Shown here: positions 9,372-14,607 of the stretch, piece after piece
How positions within the stretch are numbered: position 1 is the first letter of the stretch
Layout: every line of letters starts with the position of its first letter
DNA from: a virus
DNA: 21,868 bases
IMG/VR virus record: IMGVR_UViG_3300009152_000021
Coordinates: 1-21,868 of that record
Reading direction: 5' to 3' (one strand)
Program-made: the position numbers and the translations under genes
The notes under the pieces: generated by a model
Told to the model about the DNA's origin: nothing
Database searches by the model: none
What the model saw: only the letters and a program-made list of their open reading frames with translations

Positions 9372-10095
9372 TGATTTGATCCTCACTCTGTAATCTCTTA
9401 CGCCTAAAGCGTTCAAAGTCTTTGTGCTGTTTAGCACCTATCCACATCTTGCGTTGGTGTTCCATTTGTACACCTGTGTGTGCATATAGTTTATACCCGA
9501 AACTCTTAGCCCTAATGCAGAATAGTAAGTCCTCACCTACCCATTCTTTATGCAGTGGCATATCCTGATAGAAGCCCCACTTATCACCTTGATGTACCTG
9601 GTCAGCCTCTTTAACAAACCTTTCAAACACTGATCTATGAATCAAGATAGCACCTGTACCACACGCATCTATTTCAATGATTGAATCTTCTTCATAGTCA
9701 TGGATAGCATACAAACCATTATCAGTACCCATCTTAAATATGCAAGGCACTGGTTCAAGGTATAACTCACCAACTTCCCAACCACCATGCACAACACCTG
9801 ACACAATAGGGCGTTTATCTTTGTCTGCCGCAATAACTAACTTCTTAAAATGATCTACTGTGAATCTTTGATCTGTATCTATCTGCAATAGCCAATCATC
9901 TGTGGTTTTTTCTAAGAAGGTTGCAACTATCTGATTGCGTAATCTACTGATAACACCTGATCCTTGTAATGATATAAACTGACCCAATTGTTTTTGTGAT
10001 CTTGCCACATCTAAAATGCTTGTCATAAAGTCTGTAACTACATAACCAGGTGATGTAACCCCGATTGTAATTTTCTCTGTATCTTTCAATGCCAC
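9346..10095 (-). CDS. Glycosyltransferase, GT-A like
   Basis: This protein of about 249 residues has GT-A features: a first strand KITIGVTSPG, then SRLRNQIVATFLEK, the acidic DTDQ motif (LLQIDTDQRF) that would bind metal and the sugar nucleotide, a region ACGTGAILIHRSVF and a later DLLFC followed by a His-rich end. This pattern is common in phage-encoded family-2 type glycosyltransferases of environmental phages. The start is GTG 10095 or TTG 10089; AAGGGG fits the TTG better. It overlaps the transglycosylase gene by 10 bases (four if TTG is used). The acceptor is unknown: virion proteins, DNA or host surface glycan are all possible. Confidence 0.78.
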   Translation of the reverse strand: MALKDTEKITIGVTSPGYVVTDFMTSILDVARSQKQLGQFISLQGSGVISRLRNQIVATFLEKTTDDWLLQIDTDQRFTVDHFKKLVIAADKDKRPIVSGVVHGGWEVGELYLEPVPCIFKMGTDNGLYAIHDYEEDSIIEIDACGTGAILIHRSVFERFVKEADQVHQGDKWGFYQDMPLHKEWVGEDLLFCIRAKSFGYKLYAHTGVQMEHQRKMWIGAKQHKDFERFRRKRLQSEDQINGDNNITS

Positions 10096-10541
10096 CCCTT
10101 CTTTAAAAAGTGATCCCAGGCCTTACATGCATTAGGTACTTGATTGACTTCATCAATCCAGCCATAACGGTTGCCAATATAACGCACTCCCCATTGAATC
10201 TGTTGTATCCCGGATGCTTTTTTCAAGTATGTTGATCTACCCTGGGGAATACCTACATGTGAACCATTGACCGCTTTTGGATCCCATTTACTATTTTCTT
10301 TTGAGTATAGGTCTATAAGGCAATAGGTTTGATCAAGATTATTTAAGGTCATTAAAATATATTGCTTATAGTGTGTAGGTTTGTAATTTGAATCAGATAC
10401 ACCTATATCAAAGGATAATGTTACAAATAAACATAGAGTTATCCCGAATCGCCAGCACCTCGCGAACTCACCCTTGCAGGGTTCGCGTTTTTGCCTTTGG
10501 GGCAAATGCTTACTAGAGCCTACCACAGGTCTAAAAATCAT
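10086..10541 (-). CDS. Lytic transglycosylase / Rpf-like cell wall hydrolase
   Basis: This 151-residue protein carries an SLT/resuscitation-factor-like domain at its C-terminus. The likely catalytic Glu is in LYSKENSKWDPKAV, followed by HVGIPQGRS, IQWGVRYIGNRYG and the C-terminal ACKAWDHF with GWH. I recognise this series from actinobacterial transglycosylase-like proteins that cut peptidoglycan between sugars. Residues 33-48 are hydrophobic and could be a signal or anchor. The ATG at 10541 follows AGGAG with 10-base spacing. The first 32 residues are strongly basic and Cys-containing and are encoded by two hairpins of GC-rich DNA, so the true start may be further downstream. The gene has its own promoter region. 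Confidence 0.78.
   Translation of the reverse strand: MIFRPVVGSSKHLPQRQKREPCKGEFARCWRFGITLCLFVTLSFDIGVSDSNYKPTHYKQYILMTLNNLDQTYCLIDLYSKENSKWDPKAVNGSHVGIPQGRSTYLKKASGIQQIQWGVRYIGNRYGWIDEVNQVPNACKAWDHFLKKGWH
10461..10487. other. GC-rich hairpin inside the transglycosylase 5' coding region
   Basis: CGCGAAC and GTTCGCG pair over seven bases, with ACCC/GGG pairs possible inside the loop. On the plus strand it is followed by TTTTT, which would make a terminator if anything were transcribed in that direction. On the minus strand it lies within codons 19-27 of the lysozyme gene. Together with the neighbouring hairpin at 10490-10506 it looks like structured RNA rather than ordinary coding sequence. 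Confidence 0.55.
10490..10506. other. Second hairpin TTTGCC/GGCAAA
   Basis: Six base pairs around a five-base loop, only two bases away from the larger hairpin. In the minus-strand mRNA it comes first, followed by the 7-bp hairpin. Two adjacent stems this close to a start codon suggest translational control. Confidence 0.45.
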
Positions 10542-10562
10542 ATTAGCGTAACTCCTAACATA

Positions 10563-10579
10563 ATCTCACTATATGAGAT
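10563..10579. promoter_or_regulatory. Palindrome over the -10 region of the transglycosylase promoter
   Basis: ATCTCA (10563-10568) and TGAGAT (10574-10579) flank CTATA. The minus strand reads TATAGT at 10573-10568, five of six matches to the -10 consensus. No good -35 hexamer is found 16-18 bases upstream, so the promoter would be weak or activator-dependent. The palindrome touches the GlxR-like box by one base. Confidence 0.4.
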
Positions 10580-10594
10580 GTGATCTACACCACA
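10579..10594. promoter_or_regulatory. GlxR/CRP-like operator, site 2
   Basis: TGTGATCTACACCACA matches the GlxR consensus TGTGANNTANNTCACA at 11 of 12 fixed positions. It lies directly after the stop codon of the 33-residue gene and about 40 bases upstream of the transglycosylase start. Thirteen of the first 14 bases match site 1 at 13579-13594. With the suggested -10 the site would be centred near -25, a position expected to repress. Confidence 0.55.
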
Positions 10595-10696
10595 CTAATT
10601 AAGTTTCTTCTGAGTTCTTGTAATTAGATAACACACATAACAAGATTGACCAGGCATGACCCAGTTACCGCATTTACATCTGATTGGTTCGCTCAT
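10595..10696 (-). CDS. 33-residue zinc-knuckle peptide
   Basis: This ORF starts at ATG 10696 inside the nuclease gene's last codons and ends at TAG 10597-10595. AGAGAG lies five to ten bases upstream. The sequence has CKC near residue 7-9 and CYVC near 20-23 (CKCGNWVMPGQSCYVC), so four cysteines in a spacing able to hold one zinc ion. The rest is basic (RTQKKLN). Tiny zinc-knuckle proteins like this occur in actinophage early regions. It could bind nucleic acid. The ORF is short, so some doubt remains. Confidence 0.6.
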   Translation of the reverse strand: MSEPIRCKCGNWVMPGQSCYVCYLITRTQKKLN

Positions 10697-11177
10697 TGGC
10701 TCTCTCTAACAGTACATCAACCATTTCTATAAATGGTCGGCAGTGGCGCTTCTTAACTAAATAGAAGCGTTCTTCAATTTTCCTATATCCATCATAATAT
10801 TTCTCAATAGTCCAATCATACTTTGTAGATGTAGGTATAACAAAGATTCCCTGTGTAATTTGGCTAATCATTACATAGGCAAATGGCTTGATTATTTTGC
10901 TATCAAAGCCACTTACCGTATCAATAATCACCGGGTTAAATGGGAAATCATCAGCATTAGTAAATGATCGGCTACTACTTTTAACTTCTAAAACTAGATC
11001 ACCAACTATTACATCTTTCTCATTTAGAGTTTTATCTCTAATTTCATCATGGGTAGTCGCAATGGAGAAGTCAGGCACATCTACCTGTGGCACACCAAAG
11101 TGTTGCAATAGATCGGCAACATAAAGGTTGTAGCCATGGCCTTCACGCATGGCTTTGTGATAGTTAAATTTGGTCAT
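10674..11177 (-). CDS. PD-(D/E)xK nuclease
   Basis: This 167-residue protein shows the PD-(D/E)xK core: an acidic residue at D55 or D60 (EKDVIVGDLVL) followed by E64-V-K66 in LEVKSSS. An N-terminal helix (MREGHGYNLYVADLLQHFG) and a C-terminal strand-helix region (KPFAYVMISQ, then IFVIPTS) fit the fold. It could be a Holliday-junction resolvase or a Cas4/RecB-type exonuclease working with the recombinase-like gene upstream. It starts at ATG 11177, overlapping the zinc-ribbon gene by 14 bases. The specific type is not clear from sequence. Confidence 0.68.
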   Translation of the reverse strand: MTKFNYHKAMREGHGYNLYVADLLQHFGVPQVDVPDFSIATTHDEIRDKTLNEKDVIVGDLVLEVKSSSRSFTNADDFPFNPVIIDTVSGFDSKIIKPFAYVMISQITQGIFVIPTSTKYDWTIEKYYDGYRKIEERFYLVKKRHCRPFIEMVDVLLERANERTNQM

Positions 11178-11361
11178 TTTTGTAATCTATGTGATTGATA
11201 CATCCACAACCTGCACACTTGCGTACCCCATTAATATTTAGCATCCTTGGATCATTGCAAACTTCACAACATTCACTTAGCGGCACAATATCCAACTCAA
11301 CACCGTTTTCTGTGAATGTAGCCTTGATCCCATTGGCATCAATCATTTCCATGTCACCCAT
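11164..11361 (-). CDS. Small zinc-ribbon protein
   Basis: This protein of 65 residues starts at ATG 11361, seven bases behind GGAG, and overlaps the previous gene by eight bases. ATG 11352 is an alternative. It has four paired cysteines: CEVC (with the extra Cys just before) in the middle and CAGCGC in the C-terminal part, about 20 residues apart, a zinc-ribbon layout. The N-terminal half is acidic and strand-like. It lies between the Erf-like gene and the nuclease, so a role in DNA metabolism or transcription is likely. I cannot be more specific. Confidence 0.65.
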   Translation of the reverse strand: MGDMEMIDANGIKATFTENGVELDIVPLSECCEVCNDPRMLNINGVRKCAGCGCINHIDYKNDQI

Positions 11362-12082
11362 TGTTTGACTCCGGGTAGTACCACTTGCCATCTTTTGACA
11401 TGATTGCCCATCTAGCCGCACAACCTTTAGGGCATGTGTAACCGTAATAAGGCGTACCGCGACCTTTGGCTATCCCGGTTTTCAAAACCATTTCGCCATG
11501 TTCACAATATTGAACAGCCGGTGTACTGGTTGCAACTGCATCAACTACCTGATCTAAACTCATTGGTACTGGTTCGGCTTGTTGCGGTTTATCTTCAATA
11601 AAAGAATCTCGCAAAACCCTTTCCATTAACGCTGACTTTGATCCAGGTCTGCCATACATAGCCTGTGGCTCAGGTTCAACTGGCCTAGACAATAACTCAG
11701 CATCCAAAGATTGTGTTGGTGTTATAGCCCAGGGTTGCCGGGCTTTAGCCGCCATCACTTCTTGTTTAGATGCAACGCGCTTTGTAGCAGATTTCATAGC
11801 CGCAACTATGGCTCTACCCCAGGCAGAAGTTTCACAGATCATTAATTCTGATCCTGCGGTCATGCCTTTACCTGGTATTTGTTCCCAGGCAACTGCAACA
11901 CCTGGCCTTACATCATGGGGATCACGGTAACAAGCGGCGGTATAAACCACATAGGTTTTACCTTCAACCTGCACAATGTCATAAGGCTTATTAGGGTTAT
12001 ATGGTTGCAACGATGCTTCGGGATAGGCTTCTTTTAGTTGCGCAATGCGCTCAGCCACATCAACATAATCATTCATGTTCAT
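11354..12082 (-). CDS. Erf/Rad52-like single-strand annealing protein (tentative)
   Basis: This 242-residue protein begins at ATG 12082 (overlapping the previous stop as TAATG, SD AGGGA). Its N-terminal 110 residues have VAERIAQLKEAYPEASL, then strands EGKTYVVYTAACY and VAVAWEQIPG, and the motif CETSAWGRAI at 83-92, close to the 'ETSAIGRAL' motif of Erf/Sak-type annealing proteins and their phage relatives. The middle is Pro/Gln/Glu-rich and flexible. The C-terminus has a zinc-ribbon-like pattern (CEHGEM, then CPKGC) ending in Trp/Tyr-rich strands. It likely binds single-stranded DNA during recombination or replication. A nuclease is encoded two genes later. Confidence 0.6.
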   Translation of the reverse strand: MNMNDYVDVAERIAQLKEAYPEASLQPYNPNKPYDIVQVEGKTYVVYTAACYRDPHDVRPGVAVAWEQIPGKGMTAGSELMICETSAWGRAIVAAMKSATKRVASKQEVMAAKARQPWAITPTQSLDAELLSRPVEPEPQAMYGRPGSKSALMERVLRDSFIEDKPQQAEPVPMSLDQVVDAVATSTPAVQYCEHGEMVLKTGIAKGRGTPYYGYTCPKGCAARWAIMSKDGKWYYPESNNG

Positions 12083-12360
12083 TATTTGTTTTCCCTATCC
12101 CAAAGATTTACAACCTTTTCCATTAAGTATTCATTGTCGGCTTCAAGCATCTTCTGCCGCATTGATGGATGTGTTCTAACTGTGAACTTCTCCACCTTTA
12201 CATTTGTTTGTTTTGTATCAACAGTTCCGCGCTTGTATCCGGCTTTAAATCCTTTGTTGTAGCCACTTTCAACCGCAACAATCCAGGTAACACCAATTAA
12301 CAGTGCCACCAAAGTAAATAGGGTGATTGTTACCAACCAACCGTATATTTCAGAGTTCAT
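12082..12360 (-). CDS. Single-pass membrane protein, early region
   Basis: This 92-residue protein starts at ATG 12360, overlapping the previous gene by 11 bases. Residues 7-29 (GWLVTITLFTLVALLIGVTW) form one transmembrane helix. The segment after it has GYNKGFKAGYKRGTVDT, a Gly-rich pattern seen next to membrane helices of small phage proteins. The C-terminal half is charged and helical, probably facing the cytoplasm. It lies in the DNA-metabolism cluster, not with the lysis genes, so a holin role is less likely than anchoring or host interaction. No family recognised. Confidence 0.7.
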   Translation of the reverse strand: MNSEIYGWLVTITLFTLVALLIGVTWIVAVESGYNKGFKAGYKRGTVDTKQTNVKVEKFTVRTHPSMRQKMLEADNEYLMEKVVNLWDRENK

Positions 12361-12547
12361 ATTTCACCGCTTCCTTGAACTTGTCTAACCAATAGGCTTC
12401 AACCATTTTGGCTGATAGCCTTCCTCTAACCTGCTTAGCGCCTATTGCTTTTTTGGCGTGTTTGCGGATTAAAGAAGCCTTTACAAAATGCTTACCTTTT
12501 GCATCAACATAAGCACCTGATTGTTTGTCATATTTGACTAATTCCAA
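12350..12547 (-). CDS. Small basic protein, TTG start
   Basis: This 65-residue protein starts at TTG 12547; AAGG seven bases upstream supports that start, and there is no in-frame ATG near. The sequence is rich in Lys and Arg (SLIRKHAKKAIGAKQVRGRL) with a C-terminal aromatic helix (EAYWLDKFKEAVKYEL). It overlaps the prim-pol gene and the membrane-protein gene. The high charge suggests nucleic acid binding. I do not recognise the family. Confidence 0.65.
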   Translation of the reverse strand: MELVKYDKQSGAYVDAKGKHFVKASLIRKHAKKAIGAKQVRGRLSAKMVEAYWLDKFKEAVKYEL

Positions 12548-13026
12548 CTCATTACCTTTTCTAATTCAGCCGGTAATTCAACCGGATCAACATCATTTAT
12601 CACCTGATAAACAGTGCCGTTTGGATGTATAGATGGTGGCAACACAACATAACCTTTGTGTTTAATATCTATACCTGGTATTACCTTGCCTTTAAATTGC
12701 TTTGTTTTATCGGCAAGATAATAGAAGTGATAGCCGTTATCTGTTTTAACTGTATGCGTATTAGATGTGACACATATCCGGCGGTAAGATTCCCATAAAA
12801 TCCTGGATGCAATATTGCGTATATCAAAATCTAAAACTACAAGATTTGATTGCACAATGGCTAGGCCAATATTTAATTCAGGATCATCTTTAAACCAATT
12901 TTTAACTACTAATTTATTACTACTGGCATCAAGATAACCATGTCGCAAGAACTTACATGGCTCTTTAGATTGTGGCTTTAAAGGTAGAACCCACCAACCT
13001 TTTTCTAAGTATGCAACGGCGTTCAT
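12538..13026 (-). CDS. Stand-alone prim-pol (AEP) domain protein
   Basis: This 162-residue protein is a bifunctional primase/polymerase N-terminal domain. Its start AVAYLEKGWWVLPLKPQSKE is typical of this family. Metal-binding residues are in LDFD (D66 and D68) and a nucleotide-binding His follows in GYHFYY (H100). The third acidic region is GIDIKH (about D120), followed by VVLPPSIHPNG, again typical. It starts at ATG 13026 (ATGA overlap with the previous stop); ATG 13038 is less likely. In most phages and plasmids this domain is fused to a helicase, but here the gene ends after the catalytic domain. It probably primes or copies the phage DNA. Confidence 0.88.
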   Translation of the reverse strand: MNAVAYLEKGWWVLPLKPQSKEPCKFLRHGYLDASSNKLVVKNWFKDDPELNIGLAIVQSNLVVLDFDIRNIASRILWESYRRICVTSNTHTVKTDNGYHFYYLADKTKQFKGKVIPGIDIKHKGYVVLPPSIHPNGTVYQVINDVDPVELPAELEKVMSWN

Positions 13027-13292
13027 GCGTTCACCCATGACCCGGCATAGTTAGATGTAAAACAATACTGACCCATGGCATTATCGTATGAAATGCTGTA
13101 ATCGTATCTATTTTGTTTTAGAAATTCGGTAGCCAATATAACCGATGCATAATTTTCTACCCAATAAATAAACTTATGTGACCAACAGATCGTATCTTCA
13201 AATCTATCTCTTTGAGATGACCACTCTGTATTACCAGCCCATTCCATTTGGGCTTCGGTCAAACCTTCAAATTGATTTTTAGTAAGTTTCAT
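13023..13292 (-). CDS. Hypothetical early protein, 89 residues
   Basis: The gene starts at ATG 13292, overlapping the previous stop as TAATG, and ends in an ATGA overlap with the prim-pol gene. The protein is aromatic-rich (four Trp, many Tyr and Phe) with a mostly helical first half (NQFEGLTEAQMEW, then ENYASVILATEFLKQ) and a strand-like C-terminus (YDYSISYDNAMGQYCFTS). There is no signal peptide or membrane segment. I do not recognise it. Coupling to prim-pol suggests a replication accessory or a host-takeover protein. Confidence 0.65.
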   Translation of the reverse strand: MKLTKNQFEGLTEAQMEWAGNTEWSSQRDRFEDTICWSHKFIYWVENYASVILATEFLKQNRYDYSISYDNAMGQYCFTSNYAGSWVNA

Positions 13293-13492
13293 TATTTTTG
13301 TACCGTAAAGTAATCTGATATGGACATAACATCTTTCATGCGTTCTTTGCTATATGCAATTTCATCTGTTATGTATTGTTGTGCATCTGCTTTTGTATCA
13401 AACCAAATTACTGTTGAATAAGTTAATACTGGATTTTTTGTTACTACATACCATTGATTATTTAACTTATGGTGCTTGATTGTATATTTCAT
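13292..13492 (-). CDS. Hypothetical first early protein, 66 residues
   Basis: The gene starts at ATG 13492 with a very good SD (GGAAGGG, six bases upstream), and it is the first gene after the GlxR-like box and repeats at 13511-13594. It is therefore likely to be the leading gene of the early operon. The protein is Lys/Tyr-rich, with an N-terminal strand region (KYTIKHHKLNNQWYVVT) followed by a helix (TKADAQQYITDEIAYSKERM). This order of short strands then helix resembles small phage-encoded host-takeover or DNA-binding proteins, but I see no recognised motif. Confidence 0.68.
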   Translation of the reverse strand: MKYTIKHHKLNNQWYVVTKNPVLTYSTVIWFDTKADAQQYITDEIAYSKERMKDVMSISDYFTVQK

Positions 13493-13510
13493 AATTAACC
13501 CTTCCTGGTC

Positions 13511-13561
13511 AATTGCGTTTGTAAATGCAATTAAACACTAAGGGTCTGACAAATGCAATTA
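13511..13561. repeat. Repeat cluster in the early promoter region
   Basis: AAATGCAATTA occurs at 13523-13533 and 13551-13561, a 28-bp period. A related inverted copy (AATTGCGTTT) lies at 13511-13520 and can pair with the first copy to make a short hairpin. The two direct copies carry the suggested -35 and -10 hexamers. They may be operator half-sites or iterons. Confidence 0.5.
13530..13558 (-). promoter_or_regulatory. Candidate promoter of the early genes
   Basis: On the minus strand TTGCAT (13558-13553) is followed by a 17-base spacer and TTTAAT (13535-13530), which matches the -10 consensus in five of six bases. The -35 matches only three. Transcription would start near 13523, upstream of the SD at 13505-13499. 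Confidence 0.4.
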
Positions 13562-13578
13562 CCCAGTACGGCGTTTCA

Positions 13579-13594
13579 TGTGATCTACATCACC
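13579..13594. promoter_or_regulatory. GlxR/CRP-like operator, site 1
   Basis: TGTGATCTACATCACC matches TGTGANNTANNTCACA at 11 of 12 fixed positions. It overlaps the last codons of the metallophosphoesterase gene and precedes the early operon. Relative to the suggested start near 13523 it is centred close to -63, a typical activating position for CRP-type regulators. Confidence 0.6.
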
Positions 13595-14354
13595 CAAAGG
13601 CCTTACCCATGGCCGTAAATGACCCATCAACATTGAATGGGATCATCTCTACGCTTACATTGCCACGCTTGATGTGTATGATGACCGCCCCAGCCTGCCA
13701 ATTGGCGTATCCTTTGGTGTAGGACATCTTTTTTAGGTCGCAGGTGTGACCACACTCAACCCCTACTAAAACCCTCTCTAATCGGCCATTAAAGGCTTCT
13801 GAAGCACATGTGTAACCCAACCTGTGCGTGTGACCCGACACGACACTGCGCCCCCAGCGCTTACTAAGGTTCAACGCGGTTTGACCGGCAATATTAGATA
13901 TGACCCCTTCATCTCCATGGCATAAAACAAAGTTAGTGCCTGGGATTGGATAAGGCTTAGATGCGTAGTAAATGCCTAGATCATTAAAGCCCATAAAGTT
14001 TGCATATTGTAATTCGGGTAATCCCATCAAGCCGGGTATGCGTTGGATTGATTTGTACAATCTATCTGAATGGTTTGATCTGCTAACTACATCTGTTTTC
14101 AAATCAAATAAAATATCCTGACATGTTGCCCTATCTTCATCAAGGGTTTGCATAAATGATTCGGCCTTACCATCTGCAAATCTTGAAATGGTATTGAAAT
14201 CCATTTCATCACCAACATTTAAAACTAAATCAAATTTAAAAGCCTTCACCAGTTTCTTTAGGTTGATCACCGCTTCTGAAAACTGAAACGGTACTTGCAG
14301 GTCACTGATTACAAGATATTTTGCGTTAAATGATTTATCGCGCTTAATCTTCAT
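13590..14354 (-). CDS. Metallophosphoesterase (calcineurin-like)
   Basis: This protein of about 254 residues hydrolyses phosphoester bonds with two metal ions. Motifs in order are SDLQVP (residues 17-22, in place of the usual DxH), GDEMD (48-52), SNHSD (about 93-97), CHGDEG and SGHTHR. The first motif has Gln where most members have His, a variant I have seen in phage enzymes. ATG 14354 or 14360 is the start; both overlap the previous gene. An upstream open frame to 14435 is not supported by an SD. The substrate may be a nucleic acid end or a nucleotide. It is the last gene before the GlxR-like box. Confidence 0.85.
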   Translation of the reverse strand: MKIKRDKSFNAKYLVISDLQVPFQFSEAVINLKKLVKAFKFDLVLNVGDEMDFNTISRFADGKAESFMQTLDEDRATCQDILFDLKTDVVSRSNHSDRLYKSIQRIPGLMGLPELQYANFMGFNDLGIYYASKPYPIPGTNFVLCHGDEGVISNIAGQTALNLSKRWGRSVVSGHTHRLGYTCASEAFNGRLERVLVGVECGHTCDLKKMSYTKGYANWQAGAVIIHIKRGNVSVEMIPFNVDGSFTAMGKAFG

Positions 14355-14607
14355 CCTCATCTTCTGTTGGATCAATTCGGGGAATGATCTCAGTGGGTTG
14401 GCTTCCTGGATTGATCCAATCAGGCATTGATGCACCTGGTTCGGTAATTAACCAAAATGCAACATCATGGCTGAAACCTGCGGCTTTGGCCGCTTTAAAA
14501 AGTTCGTTTAAGGTTATGTAATGATTTTCTAATTTATTTAATGCTTCAGCCTTGCGTGGCGCACGCCGCCTACGCTGTGGTGCTTTCCTAGGTTTTTTAG
14601 TAGCCAT
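14344..14607 (-). CDS. Small protein, basic N-terminus and acidic C-terminus
   Basis: This protein of 87 residues starts at ATG 14607; a TTG nine bases upstream is less likely. The first 20 residues are highly basic (TKKPRKAPQRRRRAPRKAEA), followed by a helical region (ENHYITLNELFKAAKAAGFS), a Trp-containing segment (FWLITEP, PDWINPG) and a run of Asp/Glu at the C-terminus. The basic tail suggests DNA or RNA binding. It sits between the epimerase and metallophosphoesterase genes and overlaps the latter by 11 bases. Family unknown; similar proteins exist in other actinophages as far as I recall. Confidence 0.65.
   Translation of the reverse strand: MATKKPRKAPQRRRRAPRKAEALNKLENHYITLNELFKAAKAAGFSHDVAFWLITEPGASMPDWINPGSQPTEIIPRIDPTEDEDED

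Follow-up and report, generated by a model that had tools for sequence, protein, structure and literature searches.

The two 16-mers designated here as sites 1 and 2, both of which lie before gene starts in the DNA of a small freshwater phage, are predicted to be CRP/GlxR-type operators, an assignment that is well supported by sequence comparison. The mechanism considered fairly probable is that a CRP/GlxR-family regulator of the host binds site 1 and activates the early operon, and that at site 2 it more likely blocks or tunes transcription. Taken separately, activation at site 1 by host CRP is predicted to be likely, and repression at site 2 by the same protein is a possible reading. The window, meaning the whole stretch of DNA that was analysed, is a 21,868-base virus record whose family-matched genes lie on the minus strand; these include structural and terminase genes together with glycosyltransferase, lysis, tail and Prim-Pol primase genes. 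The features needed below are as follows (positions are those of the window):

13579-13594, site 1, predicted CRP/GlxR-type operator TGTGATCTACATCACC, read on the minus strand as GGTGATGTAGATCACA; found at one and the same position in all 81 family sequences
10579-10594, site 2, predicted CRP/GlxR-type operator TGTGATCTACACCACA, read on the minus strand as TGTGGTGTAGATCACA; present in 51 of 81 sequences
13590-14435, minus strand, metallophosphoesterase gene with its stop codon TGA inside site 1
13568-13574, ACGGCGT/ACGCCGT motif beside site 1, likewise found near CRP-like sites of other phages
13553-13558, minus strand, predicted -35 hexamer TTGCAT of the early promoter, assigned by eye and conservation
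13530-13535, minus strand, predicted -10 hexamer TTTAAT, with the predicted transcription start near 13523
13511-13532, inverted repeat AATTGC-N10-GCAATT overlapping the -10 hexamer and the start, candidate second operator
13292-13492, minus strand, 66-aa gene that comes first after the site 1 promoter, without a Pfam match
12538-13038, minus strand, Prim-Pol-type primase gene of the same presumed early operon (PF09250, E 1.2e-29)
10595-10696, minus strand, 33-codon ORF with a zinc-finger-like CxC...CxxC arrangement, its stop codon abutting site 2
10564-10578, inverted repeat TCTCATATAGTGAGA abutting site 2, preceded by a CRP-like 16-mer in 51 of 51 cases
10568-10573, TATAGT, a -10-like element within the TCTCATATAGTGAGA repeat
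10461-10509, minus strand, pair of neighbouring hairpins showing paired changes, located within the 5' end of ORF 10086-10541

Both 16-mers are found where the original prediction had placed them, and each matches 11 of the 12 fixed positions of TGTGANNTANNTCACA, the fit that it had reported for site 1. When up to one mismatch is allowed, sites 1 and 2 are the sole matches in the window (0.06 expected, mean of 100 shuffles), in agreement with the earlier statement that no other such sites occur there; two matches were reached by one shuffle in 100. Allowing up to two mismatches again returns these sites alone, however 1.54 matches are then expected by chance, so the strength of the result lies in the quality of the match. 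The full palindrome TGTGATCTAGATCACA, which we take to be the E. coli CRP consensus, is matched by each site with two mismatches in 16; at up to three mismatches they are once more the only matches in the window, with 0.07 expected. A DNA search of window positions 10000-14500 against phage records gave zero matches.

Related loci were collected through three overlapping searches, with the terminase (best 80 of 161), the metallophosphoesterase (best 80 of 173) and the glycosyltransferase (best 80 of 160); the set used for site 1 (n = 81) consists of the window and the best 80 of the 173 metallophosphoesterase relatives. Conservation of the 16-mers among relatives, proposed earlier as a check, extends to 81 of 81 sequences for site 1 and 51 of 81 for site 2. 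Site 1 occupies the same place throughout, with one mismatch in 77 sequences and two in four (L026 carries a two-mismatch form), and takes 13 distinct forms. Positions 3-5 and 12-16, eight of the twelve fixed ones, are invariant in all 81 sequences and positions 2, 8 and 9 are kept in 79-80; positions 6, 7, 10 and 11 and the flank at 17-22 vary. Position 1 is G in 81 of 81, where the consensus has T; with this position excepted, the distribution of invariant and variable letters is that of a putative CRP/GlxR operator. The left GTGA of site 1 is partly coding, since the site overlaps the stop codon of ORF 13590-14435.

A sister clade, whose metallophosphoesterase is 71-74% identical to that of the window family, has the same core promoter in all five loci read, without the CRP-bearing 31-base insert; its form is ...TTTGGGTAATTGCATTTGTC or a TAG variant, in which the stop codon directly adjoins the core promoter. 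The window family has approximately 31-41 extra bases between the stop codon and the core promoter, and the CRP site lies within them. Because the sister clade has the core promoter without the insert, the CRP site appears to be a discrete addition (or loss), and the core promoter is, as judged from these loci, older than the CRP site or at least independent of it.

A search of 48 whole records, many of which stop short of the two gaps, gave matches in 23; the backwards pattern gave matches in 0 of 48. One of the positive records, G035, has its sole match in a coding-looking VSQ(I/V)T stretch, and L054 and L055 have a two-mismatch match far from both gaps. Equally good matches in coding DNA, which had been named as evidence against the sites, are absent from the window; L011, L039, L045 and L061 do have a one-mismatch match that looks coding. 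These four records carry a near-consensus CRP-like 16-mer approximately 2.24-2.26 kb upstream of the terminase; as candidates for site 2 these matches were set aside, as they lie in a VSQ(I/V)T stretch (read by eye).

In coding-strand order the site 1 region opens with the metallophosphoesterase end (...TTT GGG TGA, whose stop codon falls within the site), followed by site 1 and some 20 variable bases that include ACGCCG; then come TTGCAT, 17 bases, TTTAAT, the AATTGC-N10-GCAATT repeat, a ribosome site and the ATG that starts the 66-aa gene. Site 1 is centred 51 bases upstream of the -10 element, which places it near -63.5 relative to the predicted start, close to the -63 given earlier. The TTGCAT-17-TTTAAT arrangement is found in 51 of 81 sequences, with variants in 29 and one unmatched. 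This promoter was assigned by eye and by conservation; a generic promoter scan of the window did not list it, and found seven promoters where 14.7 are expected in shuffles. Among the 79 family members in which the distance from site centre to -10 is measurable (L266 stops short of the promoter and L288 lacks a -10 match), it is 51 bases in 51, 61 in 16 and 56-57 in 12; the last group is half a helical turn off 51 and 61. Site 1 would serve as the binding site of the host's CRP/GlxR-family regulator, which, from about 63.5 bp upstream of the predicted early start, would contact RNA polymerase on the same helical face and, early in infection, increase transcription of the primase gene, the 66-aa gene and the genes around them, in a class I-like activation.

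Two further elements accompany this promoter. The motif beside site 1 takes the form A.ACGCCG in 41 of the 81 sequences and ACACG in six, with none in 34. It is a shortened form of ACACGSCGT, a second motif seen near CRP-like sites in L105, L115, L183 and L191; its full palindrome ACACGNCGTGT is absent from 1.194 Mb of an acI genome. The AATTGC-N10-GCAATT repeat over the early -10 and start is a candidate operator for a phage repressor; it is kept in most of the family sequences printed, altered in some and missing from L310. Its right arm is seen in two of the five sister-clade loci, which have no CRP site.

Site 2 is present in 51 of 81 loci (a count that takes in L382, L383 and L388), with TCTCAYATANTGAGA always following it; this leader is missing from the remaining 30, of which two are too short to judge, so that the site is absent from 28 of the 79 loci long enough to tell. 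Its GTG, TA and TCACA letters are kept in 50-51 of 51 sequences, and position 5 is free (A in 21, T in 18, G in 12). The TATAGT element is only 13 nt from the site centre, which is not class I promoter spacing; because of this short distance, bound CRP would cover the -35 region, and a role of CRP at site 2 is more likely to be inhibitory. Where the original prediction put both sites in promoter-bearing gaps, the activator-like position of site 1 agrees with it and site 2 lacks activator spacing; the gaps themselves need qualification as well, as site 1 overlaps the metallophosphoesterase stop codon and site 2 abuts the stop codon of the unlisted 33-codon ORF. This ORF falls below the 60-aa cut-off and is recovered in 78 of 81 loci with a loose pattern; two loci are too short and L367 has lost the stretch.

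The hairpins behind site 2 show paired changes at eight of 19 pairs, as counted in 14 sequences hand-chosen from 41 distinct ones, and an Rfam search of the window gave zero matches. A terminator-like TTTTT comes after hairpin 2 when the plus strand is read. Many related contigs start approximately 420 bases upstream of the terminase with a common CTCTCTCCCC stretch (about 9065 in the window; L013, L021, L022, L038, L041, L042, L048 and others), which is likely to be a physical genome end (cos). Since the contig starts point to such an end, the operon behind site 2 would run over the joined ends into the terminase. The same regulator would bind site 2 too close to the -10-like element for activation, and would more likely block or tune a transglycosylase operon that probably reads across the genome end into the terminase and structural genes.

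Sites of this kind are also found in other phages. Scanning virus contigs for exact copies of TGTGATCTACAYCACM gave at least 119 stretches, 17 of which match the window by tblastx; from the remaining 102, 25 loci were hand-picked, mostly for non-coding placement, having been found through the 16-mer itself. These 25 loci contain 96 CRP-like sites against one for the backwards motif, and 25 of the 96 are present by construction; ten of the 25 have no site beyond the recruiting one, and some loci are near-duplicates. Four long WhiB-bearing actinophage records carry six, nine, five and ten sites (permuted controls average 0.4-0.7), of which 23 of 30 are non-coding, and in each record they are found in one region of 6-10 kb. 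A phage stoperator array of the L5 type has many sites spread over the genome; this model was rejected, given two sites in the window and confined regions in the four large phages. The sequence TTATCCACA, presumably a DnaA box, occurs close to CRP-like sites in two records (G261 near 78,224-78,290 and G263 near 11,789-12,137), and for this reason these regions may be replication origins too.

Helical phasing to promoters was assessed in 138 site-orientation contexts from 18 sources, of which 48 are followed by a promoter-like pair at 25-110 bases. From site to -10, the best distances cluster at 40-42 (10 contexts), 51-52 (12), 62-63 (7) and 72-73 (5), followed by 78-81 (4), 89-90 (3), 96-97 (4) and three others; beyond approximately 75 bases the phasing blurs, partly as neighbouring sites share one promoter. 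After removal of contexts less than 35% different, 106 remained, and 20 of these have a promoter at 35-85 bases, with R 0.77 at 10.5 bp and 0.80 at 10 bp; the Rayleigh p of approximately 8e-6 (at 10.5 bp) is a guide only, as related phages remain in the set and the sites are not independent. Permuted motifs gave 18 of 301 with R 0.09. The spacings of 51 and 61 in the window family are in phase with the 52 and 62 of other phages.

Cultured phages of a known host share the motif. AprF5 and AprE7 were isolated on 'Ca. Planktophila' LanE-43, according to PMC10202952. Each has two sites at up to one mismatch, a perfect one included, and all are non-coding (AprE7 was scanned to base 39,000 of 39,112); permuted controls average 0.15 for AprF5 and 0.20 for AprE7. 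The AprE7 sites are on the side of small genes, an anti-restriction gene among them, and their distances to weak -10 elements, which follow TTGACT and TTTACA, are 62 and 42 bases; these elements match only three of six letters and were picked out with the pattern already known. At the AprF5 sites (22684 and 22761) a rule-based promoter is absent, except for one pair at 57 bases on the minus strand. Corynebacteriophage BFK20 has no sites at up to one mismatch in 42,900 of its 42,972 bases, and P1201 has one in the first 50,000 of 70,579 bases (permuted mean 0.02); two phages are too few to judge generality. The P1201 site (L542 12676, one mismatch) is inside the gene putatively encoding the small terminase, and the large subunit gene starts 124 bases after it. 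The recurrence of the phased motif suggests that a number of unrelated phages infecting similar bacteria probably rely on a regulatory switch of the host to turn on their genes.

The host of the window phage is inferred to be an acI-type actinobacterium, based on composition, actinophage-like terminase and capsid genes, WhiB in the sister clade and the phages of known host that share the motif. The tetranucleotide composition of the window is closest to low-GC acI genomes (r 0.73) among 20 samples, a panel drawn from one order, 19 genomes being sampled at 20 kb and another at 5 kb, with no other bacteria compared. Its terminase and capsid genes are actinophage-like at approximately 30-35% identity, and a few non-actinobacterial phages match too; WhiB is found in one sister-clade record (G041) and in none of the family's own records searched, and no relative turned up when named genomes were scanned for the terminase. 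A cNMP-binding domain was not found in the window, and a CRP-type HTH is absent from 22 virus records, a set to which AprE7 and AprF5 do not belong.

The likely host group has a CRP/GlxR orthologue, so the objection raised with the original prediction, a host without any CRP-family protein, would not hold if the host is an acI bacterium. The FISH probe AcI-852, whose sequence was taken from PMC3699509, gave 17 stretches in named genomes, one of which, labelled Omnitrophota, was left out. Eight of ten AcI-852 genomes have one cNMP-binding protein each, the two misses being the smallest assemblies; six of eight genomes of the order, low-GC ones included, have a CRP orthologue, the misses being small or incomplete, and one genome is common to both sets. 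The LanE-43 genome has a CRP gene and no sites at up to one mismatch. Against solved chains the acI CRP is closest to 3d0s (E 2e-76) and 3i54, which we take to be M. tuberculosis CRP, followed by 4byy (E 1e-72), 4cyd and 3r6s, presumably C. glutamicum GlxR; in the alignment, acI CRP and 3d0s have VGASRETVNKALADFA in common, which we take to be the CRP recognition helix.

As for the presumed ligand, class III (PF00211), CYTH (PF01928) and class I (PF01295) cyclases were each not found in ten acI genomes, the three families covered; C. glutamicum or E. coli gave matches as positive controls. The consensus itself is not enriched in these bacteria: six acI genomes have three matches against 12 for the backwards control, and among 201 genomes of the order 72 have any match, at 0-4 each (control 0-5). 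One low-GC acI genome, scanned over 1.194 Mb, has no intergenic sites at up to one mismatch and a single one at up to two, where the permuted mean is 3.4. The operator part of the original prediction is supported by conservation in relatives, and its cAMP-responsive part, by which the phage would sense host cAMP state and carbon supply, is unsupported, with the three cyclase families not found and acI genomes without consensus enrichment. Either weaker sites serve the host regulon, or strong sites are carried mainly by phages. It is possible, if doubtful, that the strong operators of the single acI CRP now reside mainly on phages, of which several unrelated lineages would have built early promoters phased to CRP, that the streamlined hosts have lost both the consensus sites and every recognised adenylate cyclase, and that CRP is chiefly a phage dependency factor or defence sensor without classical cAMP control.

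Another explanation is that host CRP binds but represses, with the sites acting as brakes on the early and late operons in the manner of coliphage T1 pir; at site 2 the two readings overlap. Site 1 and most phased sites are upstream of the -35 at helical steps, as is typical of activation, and repression throughout is on this account unlikely, albeit plausible; it draws on the covered -35 region of the element adjoining site 2, the out-of-phase 56-57 subgroup and the repression of T1 pir by cAMP-CRP described in PMC6737242. It seems rather unlikely that the palindromes are operators for another phage- or host-encoded regulator whose site resembles that of CRP by coincidence. The invariant and variable positions, including the central TA, follow the CRP/GlxR pattern, acI CRP shares VGASRETVNKALADFA with the solved mycobacterial CRP, and the 22 virus records (AprE7 and AprF5 outside the set) lack a CRP-type HTH; set against this, the putative host genome has no consensus CRP regulon, so that acI CRP may prefer other sites, and several small phage proteins have no family match.

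Two readings that dispense with a DNA-binding protein were rejected. RNA hairpins, acting as attenuators or processing sites, are very improbable: GTGA and TCAC are able to pair and hairpins with paired changes come after site 2, but the central TA is kept although it would be a loop, the commonest form of site 1 (29 of 81) cannot pair at 6/11 or 7/10, site 1 is upstream of the predicted transcription start, and similar sites are helically phased to promoters in other phages. That chance and coding constraint suffice, the left arm of site 1 being merely a Gly codon and a stop and the relatives too close to inform, can be almost wholly discounted. The left GGTGA is indeed made by GGG TGA, and GGG is used in the sister clade without the site as well; however, neither the right arm nor the central TA is coding, and both are kept amid varying neighbours, and the window uses GGG for 39 of 559 Gly codons and TGA for 13 of 35 stops, compared with 80 of 81 and 81 of 81 here. 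The motif also recurs in site 2 and in other phages, and the position pattern of sites 1 and 2 speaks against a purely coding origin.

Binding of a host CRP, with activation at site 1, would bear on a group of bacteria that is among the most abundant in fresh water (acI actinobacteria; PMC10202952) and for whose phages little is known about the timing of expression. If true, unrelated phages would have one host protein as their common point of entry, the physiology of the host would directly gate infection, and it would become testable why streamlined genomes that lack a recognised cyclase have kept CRP; AprE7, AprF5 and LanE-43 are cultured phages and host for such work.

Among the matches listed, mostly outside subscription journals, there is no report of CRP/GlxR operators in actinophages, and coliphage T1 is the closest published case; its pir, dam and recE promoters are repressed by host cAMP-CRP according to PMC6737242. 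As in T1, host CRP would act on phage promoters; the T1 case differs in being one of repression in a lysogeny-lysis setting, in E. coli with cyaA, whereas the geometry seen here is activator-like, the phages are other ones and their likely acI hosts have no recognised cyclase. The GlxR (C. glutamicum) and CRP (Mycobacterium) operator consensus is the same palindrome with central TA as the phage sites, which differ in being on phage genomes, with one putative host genome lacking a consensus regulon. The hairpins behind site 2 resemble HK022 put RNA, a hairpin pair, in being two adjacent hairpins near the start of a possible long late operon; unlike put RNA they are inside an ORF, and an Rfam match is absent. 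As in class I CRP promoters, such as lac, site 1 is upstream of the -35 with its spacing in helical steps, although 12 of 79 window family members are out of phase; compared with the E. coli class I series, in which the centre is 49 or 59 bases from the -10, the predicted spacings of 51-52 and 61-62 are approximately 2-3 bp longer.
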